From: Syntrophorhabdus sp. PtaU1.Bin058
GTDB taxonomy: Bacteria; Desulfobacterota; Syntrophorhabdia; Syntrophorhabdales; Syntrophorhabdaceae
Direction: 5' to 3'
Length of the DNA: 40,273 bases
NCBI GenBank assembly: GCA_002067975.1
Contig: MVRS01000262.1
Location: 1-40,273 of the forward strand
A program made the position numbers and the translations under genes. Positions 6,915-21,539 of this stretch are shown here, piece after piece. Each line of letters opens with the position of its first letter. The stretch's first letter is position 1. The notes beneath the pieces are model-generated. The model was given only the letters and a program-made list of their open reading frames with translations. It made no database searches and was not told the origin of the DNA.

Positions 6915-9392
6915 CTATTTATCGAGCACTGTTCTTATTTTCCGAAGGAGGTCATCCGGCAGGAGGGGTTTTGTGATAAAGTCAACGATATCGTCACGAA
7001 TCCCTTTGTCAAGGACCACATCCCCGGTGTACCCGCTGGTGAAAATGACCTTGATGTCGGGTTTTACCTTCCGTATCTCCTCGTAGACCTCGCGTCCATT
7101 CTTCTTCGGCATTACTACATCGAGGATCATAAGTGCTATGACATCCTTCTTTTCCTTGAATCTCCGAATGGCGTCTTCCCCATCAAAGGCCTCTATTACT
7201 GAATATCCTGTCATAGTGAGGATTTCTTTTGCAAGGTTTCGCACCATGGGATCATCTTCGGCAAGGAGGATGGTTTCAACTCCGCCCTTCATGGCAGGAG
7301 GGATACGGGTCGCTTCTTCCCTCATTGCTTTTACTGTGGGAAGGTATATGCGAAAGACTGTCCCCATTCCCGGTTGGCTTTCAACATCAATATATCCGTT
7401 GTGTTGTTTTATAATGCCATAGACCGTAGAGAGACCGAGGCCTGTCCCCTTTCCGATCTCTTTAGTGGTAAAGAAGGGATCAAATATCCTCTTTCTCGTT
7501 GATTCATCCATGCCGATGCCGGTATCAGATACAGAGATAAGGGCATGGGCGCCGGATTGGCCGTAGCCGTGCTCCGCGATGAAAGCATTATCAAGTTCGA
7601 CCTCACACACTTCAATGATCAGTGTACCTCCATTGGGCATGGCGTCCCGTGCGTTTGTGACAAGGTTCATCAATACCTGGTCCATCTGGGTCACGTCTGC
7701 CATAACCGTTGTGTTCTTGTCGGAGAATCTGACCTCGAGCTCGATATCCTCAGTGAGGAGCCGCTCCAGAAGTTTTTTAATCTCTTTGATGATAGTATGT
7801 ATTTTATAAGGTTTTAGTTCTATGACCTGTTTCCTGCTGAAGGCCAGAAGGCTCTGGGTGAGGTTGGCAGCCTTTTCTGATGAGTGGAGGATGTGTTCCA
7901 CGTAAACGCGTAGCGGGTCGTCTTTGCCCATTCTCCCCCGCAGGAGATTTCCGTAGCCGATGAGTGCTGTAAGTATGTTGTTGAAGTCGTGGGCGATGCC
8001 ACCCGCCAAGGTGCCGATAGCCTCCATCTTCCGGGATTGGAGGAGTTGGGCTTCAAGGTGCTTGCGTGATGTAATGTTTTCCGAGATCACCTCGTAATGA
8101 GATTTTGTTATCCCGCTTTTATCGCGGATTAAACGGGCATTCATGGATACCCATATCTTGCTTCCATCCTTACGATAATGCTCAACCTCAAAACCCTCGA
8201 CGGATCCGTGGATCTCCAATAAGTTCAACAGCCTTGCCCGATCTCCTGGATGAACATATATCTGTCTTGACGTATCGGTAATCAACCGTATCATCTCTTC
8301 GGGCGAGTCATATCCATACATTATAGCCCCGGCAGGATTGACGCTAAAGTAGCGGCCATCGTGAGTCGACTGAAAGATTCCCATGACGGCATTTTCGAAA
8401 ATGCCGCGGTATTTCTTCTCTGCCTGTATCAATGATTCTTTTGATGTGACGCTCTCAGTAACATCTTCGAGCGTTTCCAGGGCGCCGATGATATTGCCCC
8501 TGGTGTCCCTGATCGCCGTTGCGGTGAAATACAGCCATGTACCCTGCTTCCCGAGCGTTGGGAAGAAATCCACTGCTTCATAGGCTCCCTCAATAAGCTT
8601 TGATGCATTATATCTCCCGCTATACCAGGTAGGGATCATTTCAATATCTTCGTCTACCAGAAGATCTGTCAGACATGGTCTTTCTTCGTTATAAAATGCC
8701 TTCCAGTGATTCTTCGTGCCGACCATGTCCTGTACCTTCATTTTTGTGCATTCTTCTAAGGCCCTGTTCCAGTAAATGACTGTATGATCCTTATCGATGA
8801 CGAACTGGGGTATCGGGGAGCCTTGTATGATGGCTCTCAATTTTTCCTCACTCTTGCGGAGTTCTTCTTCCGTCTGTTTGCGTTTGGTAATGTTCCGTAT
8901 AATGACGACTATTTCATTTTCAGACAACGGCATGAGTCTTGCTTCGAAAAACTTCTCCTGTTTTTGCAGCGCCAGTGAATACTCGATACTGACAACAGAT
9001 CTTTTTTTTCGTACCTGTCGGATTGCATCGCGGAATTGGTCTCCGACATGTTTGACGGGAATGTCCTGGATTCGTTTCCCAAGAAGTTCACCCGGCTGGA
9101 TCAGAAAATCAGTTGTAAAACCTGCTTTATAATCAAGAATTATACCCTGATTGTCAAGTCGGAATAACAGGTCTGGCATGGCTTTAAAAATGGCCCGCAT
9201 TTCAGAGTTTGCCTCAAGTAATTCCTCCGAGCTCAGTTCGAGCGAACGTTCAAGCATCTCGCGATCTATATCAGATTCTTTATAGGCGTCGTTGACCGCA
9301 TCAATGAACCTCTTGAATTCCTCCGGGATAGAATAGCTCTCCCCAAAACATCGTTTGAGCTGGCGTTTCAGTAAATTATGCATCTTTTCCAA
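6915..9392 (-). CDS. Triple-PAS hybrid histidine kinase with receiver domain
   Basis: This encodes 825 residues, cytosolic with no membrane segments. Order: short N-terminal coiled region; PAS 1 (about 55-170), PAS 2 (about 180-320) and PAS 3 (about 325-445); HisKA dimerisation domain with the phospho-His in AGGIAHDFNN; HATPase with N box NLVTNARDAM, G1 DTGIGM and G2 GKGTGLGLS; and a C-terminal receiver (about 700-822) with LAEDD, the phospho-Asp in LILDVVMP, FTSG and TKP. It autophosphorylates on His and passes phosphate to its own Asp. No HPt domain or output regulator lies beside it, so the partner is elsewhere. The start is probably TTG at 9392, 7 bases after GGAG in the end of the FIST gene; an ATG lies three codons later. 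It follows the FIST gene with a 1-base gap, so the two form an operon. Confidence 0.92.
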   Translation of the reverse strand: MEKMHNLLKRQLKRCFGESYSIPEEFKRFIDAVNDAYKESDIDREMLERSLELSSEELLEANSEMRAIFKAMPDLLFRLDNQGIILDYKAGFTTDFLIQPGELLGKRIQDIPVKHVGDQFRDAIRQVRKKRSVVSIEYSLALQKQEKFFEARLMPLSENEIVVIIRNITKRKQTEEELRKSEEKLRAIIQGSPIPQFVIDKDHTVIYWNRALEECTKMKVQDMVGTKNHWKAFYNEERPCLTDLLVDEDIEMIPTWYSGRYNASKLIEGAYEAVDFFPTLGKQGTWLYFTATAIRDTRGNIIGALETLEDVTESVTSKESLIQAEKKYRGIFENAVMGIFQSTHDGRYFSVNPAGAIMYGYDSPEEMIRLITDTSRQIYVHPGDRARLLNLLEIHGSVEGFEVEHYRKDGSKIWVSMNARLIRDKSGITKSHYEVISENITSRKHLEAQLLQSRKMEAIGTLAGGIAHDFNNILTALIGYGNLLRGRMGKDDPLRVYVEHILHSSEKAANLTQSLLAFSRKQVIELKPYKIHTIIKEIKKLLERLLTEDIELEVRFSDKNTTVMADVTQMDQVLMNLVTNARDAMPNGGTLIIEVCEVELDNAFIAEHGYGQSGAHALISVSDTGIGMDESTRKRIFDPFFTTKEIGKGTGLGLSTVYGIIKQHNGYIDVESQPGMGTVFRIYLPTVKAMREEATRIPPAMKGGVETILLAEDDPMVRNLAKEILTMTGYSVIEAFDGEDAIRRFKEKKDVIALMILDVVMPKKNGREVYEEIRKVKPDIKVIFTSGYTGDVVLDKGIRDDIVDFITKPLLPDDLLRKIRTVLDK

Positions 9393-9393
9393 A

Positions 9394-10563
9394 CTATTTC
9401 TCCAGGAACGCGGTAATCGTCATTGTCTGGTTATGTAATTCACACTTCGCGCCGGGAGTGAACGGAGATATCTCGCCATAGGAATAGAATCCTGTCAGCG
9501 CCGCGTGATCACCCAGTATGTCACGCACGCCCTCAACCTCTTCCTCTACTCGTTGTTTGAGGACGAGTTTTCTCCCGACACAACTGATGAGGATAGCTAA
9601 GCCGGGGGTATTTTCCCCGATAGCCTTGTAGCTTGTTTTTGCTGCCCCGATAGCACCATCGATCAGCCGGTCAAAGTTTGCCTTCATAAAGCGCGCATAT
9701 GCGCCTTCGGGAACGTCCCCTGCAAATGTCATAGTCTGCTCTATTTCATCGACAGACAAAATTGTGCGAACAACTCCGGTCTCTCCGGTTTTGATACGAA
9801 GACTCAACGGGAACAGAAGCCCGGTGGCAGGAAGTCCTTTCGCATGTTCTCCCAGATATTTTTTGTATAGCCCCAGGGCGGAATGCCCGTCCAGTTCATA
9901 TAATATATTTCCTTCCGACCTGGTGATAATCCTTTCAGGACCAAAAGGGTCCCAACCTCCCAAAGAACCATAGCCAACCCGTAACCGGTTACCGTATAAC
10001 CCCAGCGCGGCAATAGTATCTTTTTCCGCAATGTTATCGCACAGCACGAACGTTTCTCCGAAACGGTCGCCATCTCCTGCCAGCCCACCTGTTACAGTGA
10101 CACCTTCGGGCAGATATTGGATCAATCCGCGAACCAGATCGCTCCCGTTGACCTGCAGACCGTCAGAGAGCACGAGGACGTGTACCAGTTCATCCTTTTT
10201 GCCGGATGCCCTTGCCGGAACTGCAGGGGGAAGGGCTTGTGCCAAATACCCGCCGGCCTGCAAACTGTTTGTTACCTCCTTTAGCCTTACTTTGGCACCC
10301 TTGAATTGTGTGTGTTCAAAGCGTACTGCCGTGATGCACAACGAATCGTCCAGCACGCTGGTGTTACAAATTTCACCGGCTGTTGAGCAGCCGAACATGT
10401 ATGCTTCCGGGTATATCTTTTTGACCTCATTAAATAGTCTTTTTTTTCTAAATATTGATGTGGCGCCAAATGCCAGGACCAGTTGTGCAGATTCCGCAAT
10501 GGCCCCGGGCGATCCTGGTTTCCACCCGTCTGTTTTTGTCCATATTTTTTGCTCGATTTTCAT
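9394..10563 (-). CDS. FIST domain sensor protein
   Basis: This encodes 389 residues, starting at ATG 10563 after AAAGGAGC. It has a FIST N domain (about 20-220), with FGCSTAGEI near residue 60 and VTGGLAGDGDRFG near 155, and a FIST C domain (about 225-370), ending in the characteristic LTGFYSYGEISPF then HNQTMTITAFL. FIST proteins are intracellular ligand-binding sensors, commonly encoded with kinases or cyclic di-nucleotide enzymes; the ligand is thought to be a small molecule such as an amino acid. Being directly upstream of, and coupled to, the hybrid kinase, it probably supplies or modulates that kinase's input. No catalytic motif or membrane segment is seen. Confidence 0.9.
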   Translation of the reverse strand: MKIEQKIWTKTDGWKPGSPGAIAESAQLVLAFGATSIFRKKRLFNEVKKIYPEAYMFGCSTAGEICNTSVLDDSLCITAVRFEHTQFKGAKVRLKEVTNSLQAGGYLAQALPPAVPARASGKKDELVHVLVLSDGLQVNGSDLVRGLIQYLPEGVTVTGGLAGDGDRFGETFVLCDNIAEKDTIAALGLYGNRLRVGYGSLGGWDPFGPERIITRSEGNILYELDGHSALGLYKKYLGEHAKGLPATGLLFPLSLRIKTGETGVVRTILSVDEIEQTMTFAGDVPEGAYARFMKANFDRLIDGAIGAAKTSYKAIGENTPGLAILISCVGRKLVLKQRVEEEVEGVRDILGDHAALTGFYSYGEISPFTPGAKCELHNQTMTITAFLEK

Positions 10564-10637
10564 GTGCTAAAGCTCCTTTTGCCGAGAATTGCAGGTAGTG
10601 TGATCAGTGCGGAATAACGTAGTATTGAGTGAGATTA

Positions 10638-10657
10638 TATGGAACTTAATTTCCATA
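10638..10657. promoter_or_regulatory. Inverted repeat, possible operator of the FIST-kinase operon
   Basis: A perfect 7-base inverted repeat, TATGGAA at 10638-10644 and TTCCATA at 10651-10657, is separated by six bases. It lies between the predicted promoter (10700-10727) and the FIST start, about 40 bases into the transcript, where a repressor could act. The regulator is unknown. Confidence 0.35.
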
Positions 10658-10699
10658 ATACTCCCCAATGTACGACGAATACTCCTAAATCATATACAA

Positions 10700-10727
10700 A
10701 GTATAGCACCTAAATAAAAGCGCGCAA
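10700..10727 (-). promoter_or_regulatory. Probable promoter of the FIST-kinase operon
   Basis: On the minus strand, TTGCGC (10722-10727), a 16-base spacer and TATACT (10700-10705). It gives a leader of about 130 bases containing the inverted repeat at 10638-10657. It is a consensus match only. Confidence 0.45.
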
Positions 10728-10823
10728 GACGTAATCATTGCCAAGACATCCGGGCTTGGAACATTGGATATCAGGATCCGTATTTCCGGTCAGGATCTTT
10801 TATATCGATTTGCATTGGAATGG

Positions 10824-11660
10824 TCAGTATCCTAATGCCTCGGCCTCTGCCTTGCAGTCGCGCGTTGGCTTGAGACCCCTGGCGCGGACGGCAGCGAGTT
10901 CCTCCCTGGCAGCCTCCACATCGGCACGGAACGAAGGGTCGCCGTGCAAACGGGCGATGGTGGCTGTTCCCATGAAATACCCCTCGGTCACATCGCTCTG
11001 CCAGTGCACGTTGCATACCAAGCGGCTCTCTCCGAAGGCCCGGCCCCGTGCGAGGATCGCGTTGGCCCGGTCGGGTGCGATCTCAGTGAGGGCAAGCGCC
11101 CATGCCCAGCCGATCGTGGTATGACCGGAAGGATAAGAGCCGTTCTTCCGTAAGCTCTTTTCCTCATCGGGCGAGCAGGTGGGTTGGTTATTCACCACAA
11201 ACGGACGGACACGCATGTACTTACTCTTTGCGCTGTGTGTCGATCGGCTTGCATCGGTTCGGATACGGCGTAACAGCGTGTACAGGCGCGGGGTATCCTG
11301 CTCGGTGATGGGGGCGTTGATCGCGCATGAGAACGTACCTGCCGCATCGGGGAACGTCAGTTCGGCGTCCAGCGCGGCCTGTTTCCAGCGCGGCGTACCC
11401 CGCAGTGCAAGATTCTTTCTGCTTACCTCCTCATCGAATGCGAGCTTGGCCGAGCCTGGAGCCGGGGGAGGGGGGAGCAGGAAAGAGCTGTCCGGGACCT
11501 CCTTGCTTGCAAGATAGCCTGCCAGGACGCCCGGACGGATTTCCGGTACGGCAGCAGGCTTGCCCTGCCTTTCAACGTTCGCACAACCCGTAATGACTGC
11601 AAGGCACGCCACAATAAGCACTATCCTGCATATTGCGTAATTACTCATAGAATGTCTCAT
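10824..11660 (-). CDS. Class A acid phosphatase (PhoN/PAP2 type), lipid-anchored
   Basis: This encodes 278 residues, starting at ATG 11660 after AAGGGG. All three motifs of the class A non-specific acid phosphatase / PAP2 superfamily are intact: KX6RP (K145, R152-P153), PSGH (177-180, in GSYPSGHTT) and SRX5HX3D (S212-R213, H219, D223). The active His attacks the phosphate and the enzyme releases inorganic phosphate from organic phosphomonoesters in the periplasm. The signal peptide ends in VITGC with Cys26, so it is predicted to be a lipoprotein, whereas typical PhoN enzymes are soluble. Base composition is visibly richer in G+C than the neighbours, perhaps a sign of transfer. It lies downstream of the ArsA pair, separated by a repeat-bearing spacer. 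Confidence 0.92.
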   Translation of the reverse strand: MRHSMSNYAICRIVLIVACLAVITGCANVERQGKPAAVPEIRPGVLAGYLASKEVPDSSFLLPPPPAPGSAKLAFDEEVSRKNLALRGTPRWKQAALDAELTFPDAAGTFSCAINAPITEQDTPRLYTLLRRIRTDASRSTHSAKSKYMRVRPFVVNNQPTCSPDEEKSLRKNGSYPSGHTTIGWAWALALTEIAPDRANAILARGRAFGESRLVCNVHWQSDVTEGYFMGTATIARLHGDPSFRADVEAAREELAAVRARGLKPTRDCKAEAEALGY

Positions 11661-11730
11661 TGAAACCCCTTATGGTTAATAGATATATTGGGACGAAAAG
11701 GGAATCCCTTTAAAGATGCCGCCGTGCATA

Positions 11731-11803
11731 TAAAGTGAAATGTGAAAGGTGAAAAGTGAAATGTTAAACAAATCTTTGAGGAAAGAACCTTTTACCTTTC
11801 ACG
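11731..11803. repeat. Repeat-rich spacer with inverted repeat
   Basis: The spacer between the ArsA pair and phoN holds the word series AAGTGAAATGTGAAAGGTG then AAAAGTGAAATG, and a near-exact inverted copy (CTTTTACCTTTCAC, about 11790-11803) that could form a long hairpin with GTGAAAGGTGAAAAG (about 11741-11755). It resembles the other word-like spacers in style but uses different words. Confidence 0.55.
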
Positions 11804-11811
11804 TTGTTTTA

Positions 11812-12792
11812 CTATGTAAAGAGATGATCCACCATGCGTTCGACCATAGCGGCACCTTTCACCTCTGTCTCGAAAAGCGGTATCACGGCCCTTACCCTGT
11901 CGCCGAAGATCTCCCAGATCTCCTCCATGTGTTCATCCTGCATCTTGACCCTGTTGAGGACAAACTCCGATGCGTCTTTACTGACCTGGTCCTTCTGGAT
12001 AATGCCGTTTACGACGACGCCGCCGACGGGAATGCCGAATTCATAGAACCAGTTGATGAACCTCGTGATGACGGCGATGGGCAGGCTTTCAGGCAGGGTC
12101 GCGAAAAAGAACGCCGTAAGCTGGTCGTTGGTGAGAAGGCTCTGCGCCTTTGCCATCCTTTCTTTGAAGCTGAGGAGGTAGTCCATCAGGGGGTCAGCCT
12201 CGTTCTTCTTGGAGAAGGAGAGCATTTCCCTGAGTGATTTTGCCTCCTCGCGGCTCTTCAGCATCTTTTCCACCCAGAGAGAATAGACCTTCGACATGCC
12301 GAGCAGCCTCCGCGCGTTTGCCGTAGGGGCCGTATCGAAGACATAGAAATCGTATTCGTCCTTGAACATGATGTCCGTCATGTTCTCGAACATGGCGGAC
12401 TCTTCAAAAGCAGGGTTCATCGTCGCCGACTCTACAAAGTCATCCGCCTTTGTCGTGAGGTCGGCAAACCTGAGAAACCAGTTTATCTTCTCCCTGATCT
12501 CCTGCTTTGACCGCTCTATCGTATCCTTCGTGTCGATCTCAAAGGCGAAGCACTTGTCGTGGTCACAGACAACGACTTCTTTGCCGAAGACATCCTTTTC
12601 AAAGAGATTGGAAAGGCTGTGGACCGGGTTTGTAGAAGCGAGGAGGGTCTTCTTGCCCTGCTTCGCAGACCATAGTGCTGCCGTGCCGGCCATAACGGTC
12701 TTGCCGACACCCCCCTTCCCCCCGAAGAAGATATATTTGAGATTCGGGTGATCGTTCATGAATTTTGTCATGCTGGTTGTGATCTGGTTCAT
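11812..12792 (-). CDS. ArsA/Get3-family ATPase, subunit A (Asn in switch I)
   Basis: This encodes 326 residues, a single ATPase half; start ATG 12792 after AAGGAG. The deviant Walker A GGKGGVGKT (24-32) contains the family's signature Lys, and switch II keeps DTAPT (D153). In switch I, where ArsA and Get3 have DPAHS or DPAHN, this protein has NPVHS with Asn55 in place of the catalytic Asp. The equivalent Asp-to-Asn change in yeast Get3 is used to abolish ATP hydrolysis. A helical region about 115-140 (ESATMNPAFEESAMF) is shared with the neighbouring paralogue. It is probably cytosolic, dimeric, and works with the paralogue 28 bases upstream. It is not evidence of arsenic resistance: no arsB, arsD or arsR is here. 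Confidence 0.88.
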   Translation of the reverse strand: MNQITTSMTKFMNDHPNLKYIFFGGKGGVGKTVMAGTAALWSAKQGKKTLLASTNPVHSLSNLFEKDVFGKEVVVCDHDKCFAFEIDTKDTIERSKQEIREKINWFLRFADLTTKADDFVESATMNPAFEESAMFENMTDIMFKDEYDFYVFDTAPTANARRLLGMSKVYSLWVEKMLKSREEAKSLREMLSFSKKNEADPLMDYLLSFKERMAKAQSLLTNDQLTAFFFATLPESLPIAVITRFINWFYEFGIPVGGVVVNGIIQKDQVSKDASEFVLNRVKMQDEHMEEIWEIFGDRVRAVIPLFETEVKGAAMVERMVDHLFT

Positions 12793-12820
12793 GAGAAACT
12801 CCTTGTTTATGAGAATGATC

Positions 12821-13801
12821 TCAATAAAACATCTTGTCTGCGAGCTTTTCGATCATGCCGAGACCGGTGATGTCCCGCTCCATCTCCGGAACAGAGGCGA
12901 GTATCTGGCCCTTGAAGACCTCGTCGATGACCTTCAGATAATGTTCCTGCATCGTGAGCCTGTTCTTGAGATACTCCGGTATCTGCTGGTTCCTCAGCTC
13001 GGGAGGCAGAACGCGGTTGATGATATACCCGCTCAGCGGCACGTCGAATTTCGCAAAGAGATCCGCTGCCTTGAGGGTATCGTTGATTATCATCTCCTCA
13101 GGTGTCAGGACGAAGAAAAAGGCGGTCTTCTCCTTATCGGTCAATATGCCCGATGATTTATTGATCCGCTCCTTGATGTAGAGCAGTTCGTTGAGGATTG
13201 CGTCCTCGTCGAGTTCCTTGTCGCGCCGTATGACGGCCGCGACCTGGTCGTATTCCCGCATCTGCTGGCGAAGGTTGGTGATCTTGTCTATCCACTCATC
13301 GTATACCGATGCCATGCTGAGGTAGTACAGCGCGTGGCCCAGCGGTACGAGGTCATAGATGTAATAATCGTACCCGCCCTGCACGACGATGTCGACAACC
13401 TCATCGAAGATGGCGCTCTCTTCCATTGCAGGCTCCGCTGCCGCTGCCTGGATATAGCTCTCGATCTCGTCGGGTATTGCATTCATGCCGTACATGTCGA
13501 TGATCTTTTTTCGTATCTCCTGCTGGTATTCCCTGACCCTGCGGTCTGCATCGATCTCCTGGGCATAGAGGTTCGGCATGATCTCTGTTGGTCCCTTGCC
13601 GAATATGTCCTTTTTGAATATGTCGCTGAGAGATGCCTGAGGGTCTACGGAGAAGACGAGGACACGTTTTCCCTGTTTTGCGAGATAGTAGGCAGTGGCT
13701 GCAGAGAAGGTCGTTTTGCCGAGTCCGCCTTTGCCGCCGAACATAATGTAACGCCGATCCGGAAATTCATCAAAGATTTTTATTAATGAAATGGGAACCA
13801 C
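12821..13801 (-). CDS. ArsA/Get3-family ATPase, subunit B
   Basis: This encodes 326 residues, the same length as the downstream paralogue but clearly diverged. The deviant Walker A is GGKGGLGKT (22-30). Switch I keeps Asp53 (VDPQASLSD), although the family's His is replaced. Switch II is altered from DTAPTGH to DLVPLGH (D150). It shares the helical insert EPAMEESAIFDEVVDI with its partner. The start is given as GTG 13801, but AAGGGG lies right against it, so the true start could be a few codons later. It is upstream in the operon, after the 90-residue protein. The complementary deviations suggest a heterodimer. Confidence 0.85.
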   Translation of the reverse strand: MVPISLIKIFDEFPDRRYIMFGGKGGLGKTTFSAATAYYLAKQGKRVLVFSVDPQASLSDIFKKDIFGKGPTEIMPNLYAQEIDADRRVREYQQEIRKKIIDMYGMNAIPDEIESYIQAAAAEPAMEESAIFDEVVDIVVQGGYDYYIYDLVPLGHALYYLSMASVYDEWIDKITNLRQQMREYDQVAAVIRRDKELDEDAILNELLYIKERINKSSGILTDKEKTAFFFVLTPEEMIINDTLKAADLFAKFDVPLSGYIINRVLPPELRNQQIPEYLKNRLTMQEHYLKVIDEVFKGQILASVPEMERDITGLGMIEKLADKMFY

Positions 13802-13825
13802 CCCCTTGTAGTAGTTTACAGCTAT

Positions 13826-13844
13826 GAGTTCGGAGTTCGGAGTT
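13826..13844. repeat. Short direct repeat in spacer
   Basis: GAGTTCGGAGTTCGGAGTT, a 7-base unit repeated 2.5 times, lies in the 78-base spacer between the 90-residue protein and ArsA subunit B. It is a minor relative in style of the long spacer repeats. Confidence 0.5.
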
Positions 13845-13879
13845 TTTTCGGATCATGTCCGTTATCCATAACTCTTGTA

Positions 13880-14152
13880 TTATGCCAGTCCGTCTGTCAG
13901 GTCTTTTTCCTTCAGCATCCTCCGCTTCCATGTTGAGATCTGGGGGACGACATAGGGCAGGAGGCGTAAAGAGTAATAAGGCGGAAGGATCGGCACCCCG
14001 AGCATATCACCCATTGTAATAAGGATAAAGAGGTGTTCCATGCTCGCCCGCGACTTGAGGGCAAAACGTGCCGAATCGTGTGCCGCTACACCATATACAA
14101 ATTCTTTAACTGCGCCGAAAAAACCACCTTTTTTCTTTTTTTCTTCCGACAT
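13880..14152 (-). CDS. 90-residue protein linked to CstA and ArsA-type ATPases
   Basis: It starts at ATG 14152 after AAGGAG. Layout: basic start (MSEEKKKKGGFFG), an amphipathic stretch (VKEFVYGVAAHDSARFALK), a hydrophobic segment (MEHLFILITMGDMLGVPIL, residues 38-56), a PPYYSLRLLPYVVP segment, then a charged tail (TWKRRMLKEKDLTDG). It may be a peripheral or single-pass membrane protein linking the transporter to the ATPases. The Pro/Tyr-rich core looks conserved in character, but I recognise no family. It is co-oriented with cstA upstream (79 bases) and the ATPases downstream (78 bases). Confidence 0.75.
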   Translation of the reverse strand: MSEEKKKKGGFFGAVKEFVYGVAAHDSARFALKSRASMEHLFILITMGDMLGVPILPPYYSLRLLPYVVPQISTWKRRMLKEKDLTDGLA

Positions 14153-14191
14153 ATTGCCTTTCTCCTTAAACTTTTATTACCGAACATTACA

Positions 14192-14219
14192 GGCCCCGCA
14201 CAGCAAGCTGCCCGGGGCC
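14192..14219 (-). other. Intercistronic hairpin after cstA
   Basis: A perfect GC stem, GGCCCCG (14192-14198) against CGGGGCC (14213-14219), lies 13 bases after the cstA stop. No U run follows on the minus strand, so it is more likely a stabiliser or processing site that sets different expression of cstA and the downstream genes than a full terminator. Confidence 0.5.
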
Positions 14220-14231
14220 GGAGATACGATA

Positions 14232-15923
14232 CTACGCCTTGGCTGCCGCTGCAGCCTGGGTCTTTATCGCTGTCCTGTACCGCTTCAATGCCTTCATCCC
14301 TTCGGAACCAAGGATAAGGGCGGCGATGACGAGGAAGAAACCGACGAGGCCCATCAATGTATTCCCGATGAGGGCCTCACCCTTCACTGCCCCTGTAATG
14401 ACCTTCTGGAGCAGGCTGTAGGATGTATACAGGAGGGCGGCGATTGTCGTGATGAACATAAAGATCATCGGCCAGAACGCCCATGCAGACGGTCTCCCTT
14501 CGGACATGAGCCATGCCGTCACCAAAAGCAGGGCAAGGGATGCCATGAGCTGGTTTGCTCCTCCGAAAAGTACCCACAGATACTGCCACCATCCCGTCAG
14601 AACAAGCACCATACCGAGTATGCATGCGATGAATGTCCCTACATGAGGGTTTCTGAATACAGGACTTATGTCGCTCAGAAGCTCTGATGTGGCGACCCTC
14701 ATGAAACGGATAACGAGTTGCATGATCGTTATTGCGAGAACGATCATCATAACACTGCCATAGGACCTCCCCAGATCGGCCGGCATCCCTATGGCGCCAA
14801 GGAATTTCGATACGCCGGCAGCGAAGATGCCGCCGGGGCCTTTTGCAATGGCTGCGCCGTATTCGGCCGATGAGGCATAGATGGTCCCGGCTATTACTAA
14901 GGCGAACAGCGCGAGCATCATCTCGACGAACATCACCCCGCCGCCTACGGGACGGGCGTCAAGCTCATTCTCAAGCTGCCTGGCTGTACCGGAGCTCGAC
15001 ACTATGCTGTGCCAGCCCGAGATAGCGCCGCATGCGATGGTAACGAACATGATAGGCCAGATGGGGCCGATCTTGATCGAGAAACCGGTGTATGCAGGAA
15101 GGGTAAAGTCGGGATGGAGTATGAAGATGCCGATTATCCCGAAAAAGAGCCCGAGGAAGACGATATATGAGGCAACGTAGTTGATGGGGAGCGCAAAACG
15201 CCAGATCGGCAGGACTGCCGCGAAATAACAGAAGACGAACGCCGCGATCGCCCATAGCCACCTGCTGTTGGCAAGGTCTGTACCGATTATGCTGTCGGAA
15301 GGGGCCTTGCTGCCCAACCATATGCCTGCCATGGCAATAATAACGCAAACGATCGTGGTGAGTATAATGTCCTTTCTCCAGCGGTATATCATCTGGCCGG
15401 CAAGGATACCTCCGATGGTGAGGAGCAGCCATGCCATGGGGGCGGCCTTCAATGCAATGGTGGTGCTTACTACAACGTTCCCGAATGCCCCGGCGATAAG
15501 GAGGAGGTAGAAATAGATAAAGGCGAGAAGGATGATCCTCGCCTTTGGCGAGATCAGCTTGTGGCTTAAGCCCCCGAATGAGGCGCCGTCGTTTCTCATC
15601 GCCACCATCGAACTCGAGTAGTCCTGGACCCAGCCGATGAAGAAGGTGCCTGCGAGTATCCATATCAGGGCCGGAAGCCATCCCCACTGTATCGCGATAA
15701 TGGGACCGATGATAGGGGCTGCACCGGCAATCGATTTGAACTGGTAGCCGAAGAGGATGTTCTTGCTTGTGGGCATGAACTCCACGCCGTCCATGTACAT
15801 CTTGGCTGGAGTAGCCCTTTTCGGGTCGGCCTTGATAACCTTGGCATCGATATGTTTAGCGTAGAAACGGTAACCGATAAAAGCAACAACGAGACCTAAA
15901 ATAAGAACCACCACTGAATTCAT
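14232..15923 (-). CDS. cstA: Carbon starvation protein A family transporter
   Basis: This encodes 563 residues with about 14-16 membrane helices, in the inner membrane. CstA hallmarks: N-terminal GYRFYAKHIDAKV, then TPAKMYMDGVEFMPT, ILFGYQFKSIAGAAPIIGPI and IQWGWLPALIWI, WVQDYSSSM, and ISGWHSIVSSSGTARQLENE further on. Members studied in enteric bacteria carry peptides or pyruvate, driven by ion gradients; they are APC-like secondary carriers. The length lies between the short (about 480) and long (about 700) forms. No BtsSR-type regulator is adjacent. Its placement upstream of a 90-residue protein and two ArsA-type ATPases, in the same direction, suggests functional linkage. The start at 15923 follows GGGGGAAG. 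Confidence 0.93.
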   Translation of the reverse strand: MNSVVVLILGLVVAFIGYRFYAKHIDAKVIKADPKRATPAKMYMDGVEFMPTSKNILFGYQFKSIAGAAPIIGPIIAIQWGWLPALIWILAGTFFIGWVQDYSSSMVAMRNDGASFGGLSHKLISPKARIILLAFIYFYLLLIAGAFGNVVVSTTIALKAAPMAWLLLTIGGILAGQMIYRWRKDIILTTIVCVIIAMAGIWLGSKAPSDSIIGTDLANSRWLWAIAAFVFCYFAAVLPIWRFALPINYVASYIVFLGLFFGIIGIFILHPDFTLPAYTGFSIKIGPIWPIMFVTIACGAISGWHSIVSSSGTARQLENELDARPVGGGVMFVEMMLALFALVIAGTIYASSAEYGAAIAKGPGGIFAAGVSKFLGAIGMPADLGRSYGSVMMIVLAITIMQLVIRFMRVATSELLSDISPVFRNPHVGTFIACILGMVLVLTGWWQYLWVLFGGANQLMASLALLLVTAWLMSEGRPSAWAFWPMIFMFITTIAALLYTSYSLLQKVITGAVKGEALIGNTLMGLVGFFLVIAALILGSEGMKALKRYRTAIKTQAAAAAKA

Positions 15924-16049
15924 ATCTTCCCCCTTGTTAACTTTATTTGTTTGATATGTAACGTTATTACACAGTTGCGGGATAACGTCAAGAAAATTTC
16001 ACAGTTACCCGACAGGGGTGTCAATATTCATTCGCACGTCCCAAACATC

Positions 16050-16078
16050 TTGATAATTTGAGGAGTTGTGTTTATAAT
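16050..16078 (+). promoter_or_regulatory. Promoter of the tig-clpP-clpX operon
   Basis: TTGATA (16050-16055), 17 bases, then TATAAT (16073-16078), a strong housekeeping-type promoter. Transcription would begin near 16085, about 50 bases before the tig start. No CIRCE element was seen. Confidence 0.7.
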
Positions 16079-16135
16079 AAGGCAGCTTATCGGGAAAACA
16101 AATATATAGTTCCCATGCATGCTCCGGAGGAATTG

Positions 16136-17413
16136 ATGAAAGTTCAGGTAGAAAACGTTGACAGCATAAAGAAAAAGGTAGAGGTGACCCTCCCTGTCGA
16201 AAAGATAAACGAATTAAGGGAAAGGATCTACGGCGAGCTTCAAAAACAGGCAAAGATAAAAGGTTTCAGACCCGGCAAGGTGCCGAGGTCGATGATTACC
16301 AGCTATTATAAGGAATACATCACCGATGAACTGAAGAAAAGGATGGTGCAGGAGACGATGTTCGATGCACTCGAAGAGGCGAAGGTCAATCCTGTGGGGC
16401 AGCCGGTGGTGGATTTTATCGATGAGGCAGACAAACACGGTTACGTCCTTGAGTGTGAGGTGATCCCGGAGATTGAGCTTCCGGCCTACAAAGGTATCGA
16501 GGTGGAGGTTGAGCCGATCGAGGTTACCGACGACGACGTTGCAAAAAGGATAGAAGGGTTGCAGCAGATGCACGCGGAGATAGTCGCGAAAGAGGGCGAC
16601 AGAGGGGCACAGAAGGGGGACCTCGTTATTGTCAAATACCAGGGATACGAGGACGGGAAGCCGATCAAGGGGGTCGGGACCGAGGCATATCCTATGGAAC
16701 TCGGGAGTTCTACCCTGATGCCTGAATTCGAAAATGAGATCTTCGGGATGAAGGAGAATGAAGAAAAAGAGATAACCGTGTCGTTCCCCGATGATTATCC
16801 CGATAAGGACATAGCGAATAAGACGTTGCAGTTCAAGGTAACGATGAAGGAGATCAAGGAAAAACGCCTCCCCGAAGTGAATGACGAGTTTGCCAAGGAC
16901 CTGAGTTTTGAGAACATGGAGGCGCTGCAGAAGGGCATGAGGGAAGAGATACACAAAGAAAAAGAGAATCTGAGAAATAAAGGGATCACGCAGAAGATCA
17001 TGGATACGCTGATAGGCAGCGCTGAGATATTGGTTCCCAGGATATTGCTTGAGAAACGTGTCGAGGCGATGATAGAAGACGCGAAATCAAGGTTCAAGCC
17101 TGACAGGTTGACCGCAGAAGAGGCAAGGGCGATCGAGGAAAGGTTCAGGAAGGATTTTGAAAAGAGCGCCGAGACGCGTATCAAGACGGAGATCATGATC
17201 ACGAAGATCTCGGAAAAAGAAGGCATCAAGGCCGACGAGAACGACGTCCAGGAGCGGATAAAGAAGATCGCCGAGGATGCCAAAAGACCGTACAGCGATG
17301 TCAGGAGTTTTTACGAGCAGTATAATCTTCTGAGCAATCTGCAGAGCAACATCATAGAGGAGAGGACGATCAATTTTCTCCGTGATAATGCGATGATTAA
17401 GGAGAAATCATGA
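16136..17413 (+). CDS. tig: Trigger factor, ribosome-associated chaperone
   Basis: This encodes 425 residues, typical length. ATG 16136 (MKVQVENVD) is chosen over an upstream in-frame extension because GGAGG at 16126-16130 precedes it and the family starts here. N-terminal ribosome-binding domain with the [11 protein letters not shown] signature (about 40-50); FKBP-type prolyl isomerase domain (about 155-240: [11 protein letters not shown], then the [11 protein letters not shown] loop); C-terminal helical arms, very rich in Lys and Glu. It shelters nascent chains at the ribosome exit. It overlaps clpP by 4 bases (ATGA), so translation is coupled; tig-clpP-clpX is the classic order. Confidence 0.97.
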
Positions 17414-17994
17414 ATCTTGTACCAATAGTCATTGAAAAGGACGGGAGAGGGGAACGGGCCTACGATATATACTCCCGGCTTTTAAAGGAAAGGATTGTTT
17501 TTCTCGGCACCAGCATCGACGACAACGTAGCGAACATTATCATAGCCCAGCTCCTGTTCCTTGAATCTGAAGACCCCGCGAAGGACATCTTCCTTTATAT
17601 CAACAGCCCCGGCGGATATCTGACAAGCGGGCTTGCGATCTACGACACAATGCAGTACGTCAAGCCGCCGATCGTCACCATGTGCCTCGGTCAGGCGGCG
17701 AGCATGGGGGCCGTTCTGCTCGCCGGAGGAGAAAAGGGCAAGAGATACGCCCTGCCGCATTCGAGGATACTGATACACCAGCCCCTTGGAGGCGCGCAGG
17801 GGCAGGCCAGCGATATCGACATACAGGCAAGGGAGATCCTGAGGATGCGCAGCGAGATCAACAAGATCTTTACAAAGCATACCGGTCAGCCCATCGAAAA
17901 GATAGCCGCCGATACTGAGAGGGATTTTTTCATGAGCCCCGAACAGGCCATCGAATACGGCATCGTAGACCAAATAGTCGAAAAGAGGATATAG
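17410..17994 (+). CDS. clpP: ATP-dependent Clp protease proteolytic subunit
   Basis: This encodes 194 residues, full length, without a long propeptide. The serine-protease triad is visible: Ser98 (GQAASMGA), His123 (SRILIHQP) and Asp172 (ERDFFMS). The YINSPGG strand-turn lines the substrate chamber. ClpP forms two stacked heptamer rings and degrades proteins unfolded by ClpX. The ATG overlaps the tig stop, and clpX starts one base after its stop, so the three are translated in a tight series. Confidence 0.97.
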
Positions 17995-17995
17995 C

Positions 17996-19249
17996 ATGAT
18001 TAAGAGAAACAACGGGAGGACGATCAAGTTGAACTGTTCCTTTTGCGGGAAGAGTCAGGATGAGGTGAAGAAGCTCATCGCAGGCCCCATGGTCTACATC
18101 TGTGACGAATGTATAGAGCTCTGCAATGAGATCATACAGGAGGAGGCCAAGAAGGAGCGTTTCGATTATATCAAGACGTCCATACCGAAACCTCACGAGA
18201 TCAGGAAGCTCCTTGACGATTACGTTATCGGCCAGGACCATGCGAAAAAGGTCCTCTCCGTGGCGGTGTACAATCACTACAAAAGGATAGAGGCGAAGAC
18301 CCATTTCGATGACGTGGAGATCCAGAAGAGCAATATCCTTCTCTTAGGTCCTACCGGCTCGGGCAAGACGCTGCTTGCCCAGACACTTGCGAAGATACTC
18401 CACGTGCCTTTTACTATTGCAGACGCAACGACGTTGACCGAGGCGGGATATGTCGGCGAGGACGTGGAGAACATCATCCTCTACCTCCTCCAGTCTGCCG
18501 ATTACAACGTGGAGAGAACGGAGCGGGGGATCGTCTACATCGATGAGATCGACAAGATATCGAGGAAGACCGACAGCCCGTCGATCACAAGGGACGTCTC
18601 CGGTGAGGGGGTCCAGCAGGCGCTTTTGAAGATCATAGAGGGCACGATAGCAAACGTCCCTCCGAAGGGCGGCAGAAAGCACCCCCAGCAGGATTATATC
18701 AAGGTCAATACTGGGAATATACTCTTCATCTGCGGCGGCGCCTTTCACGGCATAGACGGGCTTGTGGCAAGCAGGATCGGCAAGAAGGGCATCGGGTTCG
18801 GCGTCGACGTGGAGGGCGGCAGGGACAAGATGTATTCGGAACTGATGCGGGAGATCCAGCCCGAAGACCTCCTGAAATACGGCCTGATCCCAGAATTCAT
18901 AGGCAGGCTGCCGATCACGGCCACGCTTGATGAGCTCAGCGAGGAGAACCTCGTGGAGATCCTGAAGAGACCGAGAAACGCAATCGTTAAACAGTACAAA
19001 AAACTCTTCGAGCTTGAGAACGTCAAGCTTACCTTCACGGAAGGCGCGCTCAGGGGCATTGCGAAGGATGCCATGAAGAAGAAGACGGGTGCCAGGGGTT
19101 TGAGGTCCATCATGGAGAAGGTCATGCTCGACGTGATGTACGAGATCCCGGCGCTCTCCAACGTGAAGGAGTGTGTTGTCAGTGAAGAGGTCATCGTGAA
19201 CCACGAAAGACCCATACTCATTTACGAAGAAGAGGCAGAGATTGCCTGA
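17996..19249 (+). CDS. clpX: Clp protease ATP-binding subunit, AAA+ unfoldase
   Basis: This encodes 417 residues. N-terminal C4 zinc domain (C14, C17, C36, C39); Walker A GPTGSGKT (118-125); pore loop GYVG (151-154); Walker B YIDEID (181-186); RKH pore loop in GGRKHPQQ; ClpP-docking IGF in KKGIGFGVD; sensor 2 Arg in [10 protein letters not shown]. All parts needed to unfold tagged substrates and dock on ClpP are present. It is last in the operon. A tRNA pair follows 47 bases downstream, with no obvious terminator between. Confidence 0.98.
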
Positions 19250-19296
19250 GGGTTTGATTGACATTTATCGTTGAACCTGCTATATTGTGCCGGATC

Positions 19297-19371
19297 GGGC
19301 GGGTAGCTCAGCGGGAGAGCATCGGCCTTACAAGCCGGGGGTCACAGGTTCAAAACCTGTTCCGCCTACCA
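19297..19371 (+). tRNA. tRNA-Val (TAC)
   Basis: This is a cloverleaf of 75 bases including encoded CCA. Acceptor GGGCGGG pairs with TCCGCCT (G-U at both ends of the stem); D arm GCTCAGCGGGAGAGC; anticodon stem TCGGC/GCCGG with loop CTTACAA, anticodon TAC reading Val codons; T arm ACAGG-TTCAAAA-CCTGT. Discriminator base A at 19368. Positions 1-72 form a G-U pair where most Val tRNAs have G-C. Confidence 0.95.
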
Positions 19372-19378
19372 TTTAAGC

Positions 19379-19456
<78 letters not shown>

Positions 19457-19472
19457 TTTCAAAAAGGACGCA

Positions 19473-21539
19473 ATGAATTTTATCCTCTGCATCCACAATC
19501 ATCAGCCCGTCGGGAATATGGACTTTATACTTGAAGAGGCATATGCGAAATCGTATATGCCTTTTTTTGATGTCCTGAAAGATTTTGAAGATATCAAGGT
19601 AAACCTCCATTTTTCCGGTTTTCTCTTTTCGTGGCTCAGGGAGCACAAGCCTGAATATATCAAGCTCCTTAAACAACTGAAGAAGAGGGGCCAACTGGAG
19701 ATCATCTCCGGCGGCATGTACGAGCCTGTCTTTTCCCTTTTGAGCGAAGAGGACGGGGTGAGCCAGATAACAACGCACATGGACCTTATGGAAGACGTCT
19801 TCGGAGAGAGACCGGCCGGTATGTGGCTCGCGGAGAGGGTCTACGAGCCCTATATCCCCAGGGTGCTCCATAAGGCCGGGATCGCCTTTACCCTCGTTGA
19901 CGACAACCACTTTAAGGCCGTGGGCCTTGACGAGAAAGACCTCTACGGTTATTTTATCACGGAATATGAGGGACACCCCCTCTCGATCTTCCCCGGTCTT
20001 GAATTCCTCCGTTACGCGATCCCCTTCAAGCAGATCGATGTCCTCGACGGATACCTGAAGGGGATTGAAGAACAGGGAGGAGACCTCGTTGTCTTCGGCG
20101 ACGACGGCGAAAAGTTCGGCCTCTGGCCCGGGACATTCGATTACGTCTATAAGGAAGGATGGCTGCGGTCATTTTTTGAATATTTGTCCGGGAACAGTGC
20201 GTGGCTGAAGACAACGACGTTTTCCGAATACATGGAGGCGAAACCGCCGAAGGGCAGGATCTACCTCGGTTGCGAATCATATAAGGAGATGGGGGAATGG
20301 TCTCTGCCTGCCGGGATCTCGAAAGAGTACGGCGACCTGTTGAATGAAAAGGAGATACCCTACAGACGTTTCCTGAGAGGCGGCTATTTCAAGAATTTTC
20401 TCGTCAAGTACACGGAAAGCAACGACATGCACAAAAAGACCCTCCGCCTGTCAAAGAAGGCCGGGAGGAACGCCGGGGCAAAAAGACACGTGTACATGGC
20501 CCAGTGCAATGACAGTTACTGGCATGGCGTCTTCGGCGGACTTTATCTCCCCCACCTGAGGGCGTCCGTCTACCGGCACCTCATTGAGGCGCGGAAACTC
20601 CTTGACCCGAAGAGGCCCTTTGTTGACGGATATATCGAGGACATAAATTTCGACGGCCATGACGAGGCAATACTGGGCAACAACGAGCTCGAGGCGTCGT
20701 TTTTCCTGAAAGAAGGGGGCACGCTGTACGGGCTCGACTACAAACCGTCATCGGCCAATATCATGGCTACCCTCAGGAGACGGTACGAGGGATATCATGA
20801 AAAGATAAAACTGGCGCTCTCCGCAAACATTGCCGACGGGACGAAGACCATCCATGACATGGTCATGGCAAAGGAAGAGGGGCTCGACAAATACCTCCAT
20901 TATGACTGGTACCGGAGGGGTTCTCTCATCGACCATGTTATGGGTAATGATGTGACCCTGGAGCCATTTTACCGGGGGAGATATCTCGAGCCGGGGGATT
21001 TTGTCAAAGAGCCCTATCAGGGCATTATACAAAAGGACAAGAAGGCGGTACAGCTCTCGATGGAGAAGAAGGGACATTACTGGCAGGGCGAAAAGGGCAC
21101 GCCGCTCACTGTCAGGAAGAACGTCGTTATGCAGCAGGGGACAGGCCCGCTCACCGTTGATTACGTCCTCGAAGGGATGATAGAGGGGCAGTTCTGTTTC
21201 GGGGTGGAATGGAACTTTTCGCTGCTCGGTACCGGCGGGGACAGGTTCTTGGAGGCCGGCGGCACAAAGTACCCGCTGACAATCAAGGATACGCTCGGGC
21301 AGTCGGAGAGGGTGACGCTCTTCGATCCCTATCAGGACGTTGAGATTCTCCTCGAATGGGACACGCCCGCGCAGATCTGGACCTTTCCCGTTGAGGTCGT
21401 ATCATTGTCAGAGAACGGCTTTGAGCGGAACTACCAGAGCACAATGGTCATGCCGGTCTGGTCCGTGGACCTGTCCAGGGGACCGTGGAACATGTCGATG
21501 AAGCTCCACCTCAAACAGACCAGTGGAATAAACCCGTAA
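19473..21539 (+). CDS. GH57 4-alpha-glucanotransferase / alpha-amylase
   Basis: This encodes 688 residues; start ATG 19473 after AAAAGGA. The N-terminal GH57 barrel begins with HNHQPVG (8-14); the nucleophile Glu121 is in GMWLAERVYEP, matching Glu123 of the Thermococcus litoralis enzyme; the acid Asp is in VFGDDGEKFG (209-215). Around 300-400 is the DUF1925 helical part, and beyond about 410 the all-beta DUF1926 domain (YNDEAILGNNELEASFF-like start; ends MSMKLHLKQT). The length and the two C-terminal domains are typical of cytosolic 4-alpha-glucanotransferases acting on glycogen or maltodextrins. There is no signal peptide. The stop codon begins a repeat tract that runs to the GT2 gene. Confidence 0.93.
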   Translation: MNFILCIHNHQPVGNMDFILEEAYAKSYMPFFDVLKDFEDIKVNLHFSGFLFSWLREHKPEYIKLLKQLKKRGQLEIISGGMYEPVFSLLSEEDGVSQITTHMDLMEDVFGERPAGMWLAERVYEPYIPRVLHKAGIAFTLVDDNHFKAVGLDEKDLYGYFITEYEGHPLSIFPGLEFLRYAIPFKQIDVLDGYLKGIEEQGGDLVVFGDDGEKFGLWPGTFDYVYKEGWLRSFFEYLSGNSAWLKTTTFSEYMEAKPPKGRIYLGCESYKEMGEWSLPAGISKEYGDLLNEKEIPYRRFLRGGYFKNFLVKYTESNDMHKKTLRLSKKAGRNAGAKRHVYMAQCNDSYWHGVFGGLYLPHLRASVYRHLIEARKLLDPKRPFVDGYIEDINFDGHDEAILGNNELEASFFLKEGGTLYGLDYKPSSANIMATLRRRYEGYHEKIKLALSANIADGTKTIHDMVMAKEEGLDKYLHYDWYRRGSLIDHVMGNDVTLEPFYRGRYLEPGDFVKEPYQGIIQKDKKAVQLSMEKKGHYWQGEKGTPLTVRKNVVMQQGTGPLTVDYVLEGMIEGQFCFGVEWNFSLLGTGGDRFLEAGGTKYPLTIKDTLGQSERVTLFDPYQDVEILLEWDTPAQIWTFPVEVVSLSENGFERNYQSTMVMPVWSVDLSRGPWNMSMKLHLKQTSGINP

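Follow-up and report, generated by a model that had tools for sequence, protein, structure and literature searches.

CstA-family proteins are secondary carriers of pyruvate or peptides, and the question raised by a gene cluster of Syntrophorhabdus sp. PtaU1.Bin058 (phylum Desulfobacterota) is why such a carrier should be encoded together with two ATPases of the ArsA/Get3 type. The cluster lies on contig MVRS01000262.1 (assembly GCA_002067975.1), of which positions 1 to 40,273 were analysed (the window), and comprises genes for CstA, for a small protein, CstX, and for two ATPases, termed A1 and A2 below. A sequence-only reading had placed the four genes in one direction with short gaps between them, which is borne out on the minus strand (Table 1), and had suggested that the ATPases energise or gate the carrier, or chaperone membrane proteins, with the small protein as link, in an undescribed ATP-linked form of CstA. 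This interpretation is partly supported: the four genes are one conserved unit, and what is new about them is a fixed Asp/Asn asymmetry of the ATPase pair and, in sister operons, a CCDC47-like protein, CstY.

The operon type itself was already known, and to call it undescribed was wrong. Castillo and Saier (2010, PMC2963123) reported 26 instances of CstA-CstX-ArsA operons in bacteria and archaea, with a CstX of about 90 amino acids, a single-domain ArsA of about 330 amino acids, sometimes two ArsA genes, and no ars genes. They found co-evolution of the three proteins, and proposed that ArsA energises CstA while CstX couples ATP hydrolysis to the carrier (PMC2963123); no later experimental test of this proposal was found in the literature searched. 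The window cluster is a two-ATPase member of this operon type, with which it shares CstA, a CstX of similar size, single-domain ATPases and the absence of ars genes. The likeness of the two CstX proteins is one of length and operon context, and the 2010 type has one transmembrane segment. In 2010 two organisms were found to have tandem ArsA pairs, with 31% and 25% identity between partners, compared with 32% for A1 and A2. Unreported for those operons are the Asp/Asn asymmetry, the origin of two ATPase clades from one duplication, a CstY in bacteria, and its CCDC47 fold.

The distribution of the genes shows that they belong together. Among 148 genomes of the Desulfobacterota, CstX was found in 20, and CstA and strong ArsA matches were each found in 73, with CstA and ArsA no more than 5 kb apart in 20 genomes. 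Because fewer than one such genome is expected by our own arithmetic, given some 1.6 ArsA genes in a genome of 3.3 Mb, the grouping of CstA with ArsA is not a matter of chance. A CstX profile run against 84,980 species genomes identified 470 confirmed relatives, of which the best 80 loci were read; although these loci were fetched by CstX alone, CstA, CstX, A1 and A2 follow one another in order and on one strand in 62, so that co-occurrence of the four families is clear in both surveys. CstA is on the opposite strand in two of the remaining loci (L130 and L135), and most of the others stop at a contig border. The four-gene unit is conserved in the Desulfobacterota, the Chloroflexota and members of other phyla, with CstX present in 16 of 151 Chloroflexota genomes, often as two tandem genes. 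The plasmid collection, tried as a source of archaeal or actinobacterial operons, contained no CstX, and CstA solely as lone copies in the annotated records examined.

The sequence-only reading described the ATPases as a pair of single-half enzymes, but missed that the two are not equivalent. Alignment to yeast Get3 identifies in A1 the motifs GGKGGLGKTT, SVDPQASLSD, with the catalytic Asp kept, and DLVPLGH, and in A2 the motifs GGKGGVGKTV, STNPVHSLSN, with Asn at Get3 position 57, and DTAPTAN. The signature lysine of the P-loop (GGKGG.GK) is kept in both, and in all ATPases aligned. The Asn of A2 is one that inactivates Get3, since Get3(D57N) binds ATP but does not hydrolyse it (PMC12506534). 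Exactly one Asp and one Asn are found at this position in 91 of 91 loci with two full ATPases (including at least five genomes represented twice), and in all 91 the Asp is retained in A1 and the Asn stands in A2. Single-ATPase operons, by comparison, have Asp and a DTPPTG-like switch II in 13 of 13 cases (seven, plus six read later); five further one-ATPase cst loci are paired-type A1 genes cut by contig ends, and stand outside this count. In a maximum-likelihood tree, A1 and A2 each form one clade (each 100/99), the two clades are sisters (100/97), and their subtrees are alike in appearance, which indicates at the sequence level that A1 and A2 stem from one ancient duplication. The single-ATPase type is set apart from both (100/99); long branches leave deeper placements unsure.

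In each of the 93 paired loci, A1 and A2 are direct neighbours read from one strand, with a single gap of about 400 bases (L104). The constant Asp/Asn pairing and this lasting adjacency together are the trace that an obligate heterodimer would be expected to leave if one site is active and the other locked; we infer that A1 and A2 most likely form such a dimer, hydrolytic at one site and ATP-locked at the other. The spacing between CstX and A1 is looser, at 570-1720 bases in eight loci, and the scanned cases are filled by toxin-antitoxin or PIN genes. Inserts of 0.9-1.7 kb at this place are seen in L114, L116, L117, L118, L121 and L122; those scanned hold Phd/YefM antitoxin, nucleotidyltransferase or PIN-type genes, and A1 and A2 stay together. 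The genome of the window also encodes a separate, single ArsA/Get3-like ATPase (contig C219, 10648-11553) with intact motifs (SSDPTPSLSD, DTAPAGH, CxxH), near an ATPase of the MinD/ParA type.

Known relatives of the pair differ from it in instructive ways. A1 and A2 resemble Get3/TRC40 in their deviant Walker A motif with its signature Lys, in the layout of switches I and II, in a single domain of about 330 amino acids, and in an expected dimeric state. Unlike Get3/TRC40, they have no CxxC zinc clamp (0 of 98 A1 and 0 of 93 A2 sequences), their helical part, the region of the hydrophobic groove that receives tail anchors in Get3, is more polar (mean hydropathy, calculated on sequence only, of -0.43 in A1 and -0.25 in A2 against +0.04 in Get3), A2 is in the D57N state, and the subunits are two different proteins. 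BagA/BagB (Rv3679/Rv3680) of Mycobacterium tuberculosis are, like A1 and A2, two different Get3-like subunits, and share a single PDB entry (6bs3), but the similarity to A1 and A2 is weak (E 6e-8 and 3e-6) and well below the NCBIfam cut-offs. In Escherichia coli ArsA, which acts with ArsB, there is likewise an ATPase with a genetic tie to a secondary carrier, and its two nucleotide sites are unequal, whereas the window has two genes instead of one fused protein, no metal-binding cysteines, CstA as the carrier and CstX as a candidate link protein. Membership of both ATPases in PF02374 and TIGR00345 would allow A1 and A2 to be taken for the split halves of the ATPase of a classical arsenite pump. 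The probability of this is practically negligible, and the idea is rejected, because ArsA-type cysteines are lacking (none in A1, and C76 and C81 alone in A2), the score against TIGR04291 is about 103 with a cut-off of 650, and there is no arsB, acr3, arsD or arsR in the operon or its vicinity, judged from the open reading frames and Pfam content of the neighbours at 6915-21539. The sequence-only reading was thus right about the absence of arsenic genes.

The role of linking ATPases to carrier would fall to CstX, the gene common to the one-ATPase and two-ATPase forms of the operon. Comparison of 66 relatives reveals the invariant residues G21, G52, P54 and P66 and a shared core, GDLLGVP.LPPYYSLRLLPY..P.I..WKRRMLRE.DLTD. 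An AlphaFold model of moderate confidence (predicted local distance difference test, pLDDT, 74; predicted template modelling score, pTM, 0.38) consists of two helices, 3-48 and 65-89. The highest hydropathy over 19 residues is 1.49, a borderline value, and CstX may lie at the membrane or partly inside it. No Pfam family matches CstX, even with the 66 relatives scanned singly, and the PDB holds neither a sequence nor a fold match; there is a weak match to NF041419 'cory-CC-star' (E 4e-9), below the family cut-off. With these components, a mechanism can be proposed in which the A1-A2 dimer would close around two ATP molecules, A1 hydrolysing its ATP and A2 binding ATP without hydrolysis as a locked structural half. 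The two-helix CstX would tether the heterodimer to the cytosolic side of CstA, and CstA would be opened, closed or driven as A1 cycles through ATP, so that a simple secondary carrier would become an ATP-controlled one. We tentatively favour this arrangement, in which an A1-A2 heterodimer tied through CstX to CstA gates or powers transport, with somewhat less than even confidence.

Several observations weigh against such coupling. The switch II of A1, DLVPLGH, is altered relative to DTAPTGH, and A1 may for that reason be slow or inactive. Neither the second CstA of the window's genome, a lone copy on contig C99 that is only about 29% like the window CstA, nor E. coli CstA has such partners, from which it follows that ATP is not required by the CstA family. 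In one locus (L133), CstX, A1 and A2 are present and CstA is truly absent within 9 kb; some relatives of CstX are encoded apart from CstA, in one case next to FeoB and in another next to NikR; and the CCDC47-like protein of the sister operons points toward membrane-protein biogenesis. The stray CstX copies, which share no constant neighbour, together with L133 and with a genome (G140) that has a CstX relative but no CstA match, would suit a CstX-A1-A2 unit that is a general membrane-protein module merely travelling with cstA in these lineages. This is very unlikely, given that CstA is in order and on the same strand in most loci, that most exceptions fall at contig borders, and that A1-A2 is tied to CstX plus CstA and not to the stray CstX copies. 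The stray copies and G140 do qualify the claim made in 2010 that CstX is always accompanied by CstA. Such copies lie at L039:9353-9658 (beside FeoB and a metal ABC transporter), L040:9321-9587 (NikR) and L043:1408-1746 (NifU and a radical SAM protein), and more at L041:9182-9529, L042:9458-9775, L045:1096-1398 and L170:5414-5701. A link between CstX and FeoB was considered and rejected, as L039 is its one clear locus, L046 shows no more than a broken remnant, and the other stray copies have other neighbours.

The carrier itself is a clear CstA (464 bits against PF02554, cut-off 27), although it scores only 198 bits against PRK15015, whose cut-off is 1188. Pyruvate uptake has been shown for both CstA and BtsT of E. 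coli (PMC5847655, PMC7730263). These belong to the same carrier family as the window CstA, which is shorter, and have no CstX or ATPase partners. In a one-ATPase cst operon (L152:6774-9581), CstA is immediately preceded by a LytS-type kinase and a LytTR regulator, a pair that resembles the pyruvate sensor BtsSR; in E. coli, regulation of this kind governs the pyruvate carrier BtsT (PMC10653868). By this analogy, the neighbours speak for a pyruvate-type carrier under demand control; by its family, the window CstA would carry pyruvate or peptides. In L152 and in L153, both one-ATPase operons without CstY, a membrane protein of 160-190 amino acids with no Pfam match is encoded between CstA and CstX (L152:4512-4997 and L153:5190-5768). 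ATP could also have a purely regulatory part in these operons, with A1-A2 sensing ATP/ADP and shutting CstA through CstX when energy is low, and with no energy passing into transport. One locked and one active site, with no second motor site kept, fit a switch better than a motor, and many members of the operon type come from lineages whose names mark them as syntrophic or strictly anaerobic; the sequences do not separate this from the gating included in the coupling that we favour. We regard regulation as the sole function as improbable.

The last gene in most single-ATPase operons encodes a protein of about 210 amino acids with one N-terminal membrane helix, here named CstY by its fit to the description in the 2010 paper, where it was seen solely in archaea (PMC2963123). 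Such genes are at L143:5265-5855 (minus strand), L144, L145, L146, L154 and L183-L188. Eight of 11 CstY proteins match PF07946 (CCDC47) weakly on their own, over their first 36 or so residues, with a best score of 27.2 bits that falls short of the curated cut-off of 27.7. Across 30 genomes the only PF07946 matches were three CstY genes, with none in the 14 control genomes. A PDB sequence search with a CstY profile found no CCDC47, the likeness emerging only from single-sequence Pfam scans and from structure comparison. A confident AlphaFold model of the L145 protein (pLDDT 89, pTM 0.83) aligned with 7tm3_4 over 204 of 207 residues (2.8 A, Z 17.6, Foldseek E 4.7e-6), and also matched the SND3 translocon chain 9i78_4 (Z 15.5) and 6w6l_7 (Z 10.4). 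A search with a CCDC47 stretch as probe, which found an exact match, names 7tm3_4 and 6w6l_7 as CCDC47. TtfA, a trehalose monomycolate transport factor of mycobacteria whose PDB entry likewise names it a transport factor, gave Z 10.6; beyond the translocon chains and TtfA, the next match had Z 7.3. As modelled, CstY matches the CCDC47 fold over its entire length, as a whole domain. At the multipass translocon, CCDC47 belongs to the intramembrane chaperone PAT (PMC9630114, PMC13261788), a complex said in a 2026 review to have no obvious bacterial homologues (PMC13261788), and bacterial relatives of CCDC47 appear to be so far undescribed. Asterix, a PAT partner, was tried as a relative of CstX and rejected, with no Pfam match at E up to 10.

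The CCDC47 likeness is a finding on the sister operons and not on the window, but it bears on the function of the module. Because sister operons carry this protein, the chaperone alternative gains weight, in which the ATPases and CstX, with CstY where present, would be a biogenesis or assembly module that inserts, folds or assembles CstA. The nearness of ArsA-type ATPases to the membrane-protein targeting factor Get3 is in keeping with this main rival. It is offset by the absence of CstY from the 14 two-ATPase genomes of the Desulfobacterota examined (that of the window and 13 further), by a lone CstA in the same genome that needs no such help, and by the fit of TtfA to the CstY fold, whereby the fold is no proof of biogenesis; classical tail-anchor targeting is further opposed by the missing CxxC and by a helical part less hydrophobic than that of Get3. 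On balance, a biogenesis module is somewhat unlikely. It is rather unlikely that CstX, ATPase and CstY constitute a bacterial membrane-protein module in which a Get3-like ATPase and a protein like CCDC47 are grouped around a single polytopic carrier; in the form seen in the window, the ATPase would then be an asymmetric A1-A2 heterodimer with one site locked. A diverged CstY is encoded on the opposite strand next to the two-ATPase cluster in 11 of 15 Chloroflexota genomes, and Chloroflexota loci with CstY are L129, L132, L137, L140, L157, L161, L163, L165 and L166.

The cluster has the layout of an operon (Table 1). A purine-rich ribosome-binding stretch precedes each of the four starts, and a search of the three intergenic gaps for terminators yielded no convincing one. 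On the upstream side, trigger factor-clpP-clpX is read divergently from the cluster, and genes for PAP2, a FIST protein and a PAS histidine kinase lie downstream; the Pfam content of the neighbouring reading frames at 6915-21539 is PAP2, FIST, PAS kinase, trigger factor and GH57. Trigger factor and PAP2 are kept as neighbours in just four very close relatives, and the unit is therefore the four genes; a functional link to the adjoining trigger factor is rejected on the same ground. On the minus strand at 6915-10563, the FIST sensor gene is followed, nearly touching, by the PAS histidine kinase-response regulator hybrid, and the two are likely a sensory pair of their own.

Table 1. Genes, diagnostic codons and intergenic gaps of the cst cluster, in window coordinates.
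Feature	Position	Strand	Evidence or remark
CstA-family carrier, 563 amino acids	14232..15923	minus	PF02554, E 8.3e-139; first gene of the cluster
CstX, 90 amino acids, candidate small helical linker	13880..14152	minus	kept near CstA and the ATPases across the 80 loci
A1, ArsA/Get3-type ATPase, 326 amino acids, GTG start	12821..13801	minus	PF02374, E 4.2e-71
A2, ArsA/Get3-type ATPase, 326 amino acids	11812..12792	minus	PF02374, E 4.9e-63
A1 Asp53 codon, Get3 D57 position, retained	13643..13645	minus	alignment to yeast Get3, and DNA
A2 Asn55 codon, Get3 D57 position, D57N state	12628..12630	minus	alignment to yeast Get3, and DNA
CstA/CstX gap, 79 bp	14153..14231	minus	good Shine-Dalgarno (aaggag); terminator-like site not found
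CstX/A1 gap, 78 bp	13802..13879	minus	sole hairpin trivial, 5 pairs, 13805-13793
A1/A2 gap, 28 bp	12793..12820	minus	Shine-Dalgarno (aaggag)

What deserves specialist attention in this system is the catalytic asymmetry, fixed throughout the pairs, and the likeness of CstY to CCDC47. The natural D57N subunit offers a ready entry to the question of how dimers of the ArsA/Get3 type work with one site at a time. If the proposed coupling is correct, a carrier family known to act alone would gain an ATP-dependent branch. If CstX, ATPase and CstY form a membrane-protein module, eukaryotic PAT/GET machinery would have a relative among prokaryotes, and operons that combine an ArsA/Get3-type ATPase with a CCDC47-like protein would allow bacteria to be used for studying how part of the machinery that inserts membrane proteins in eukaryotes arose.

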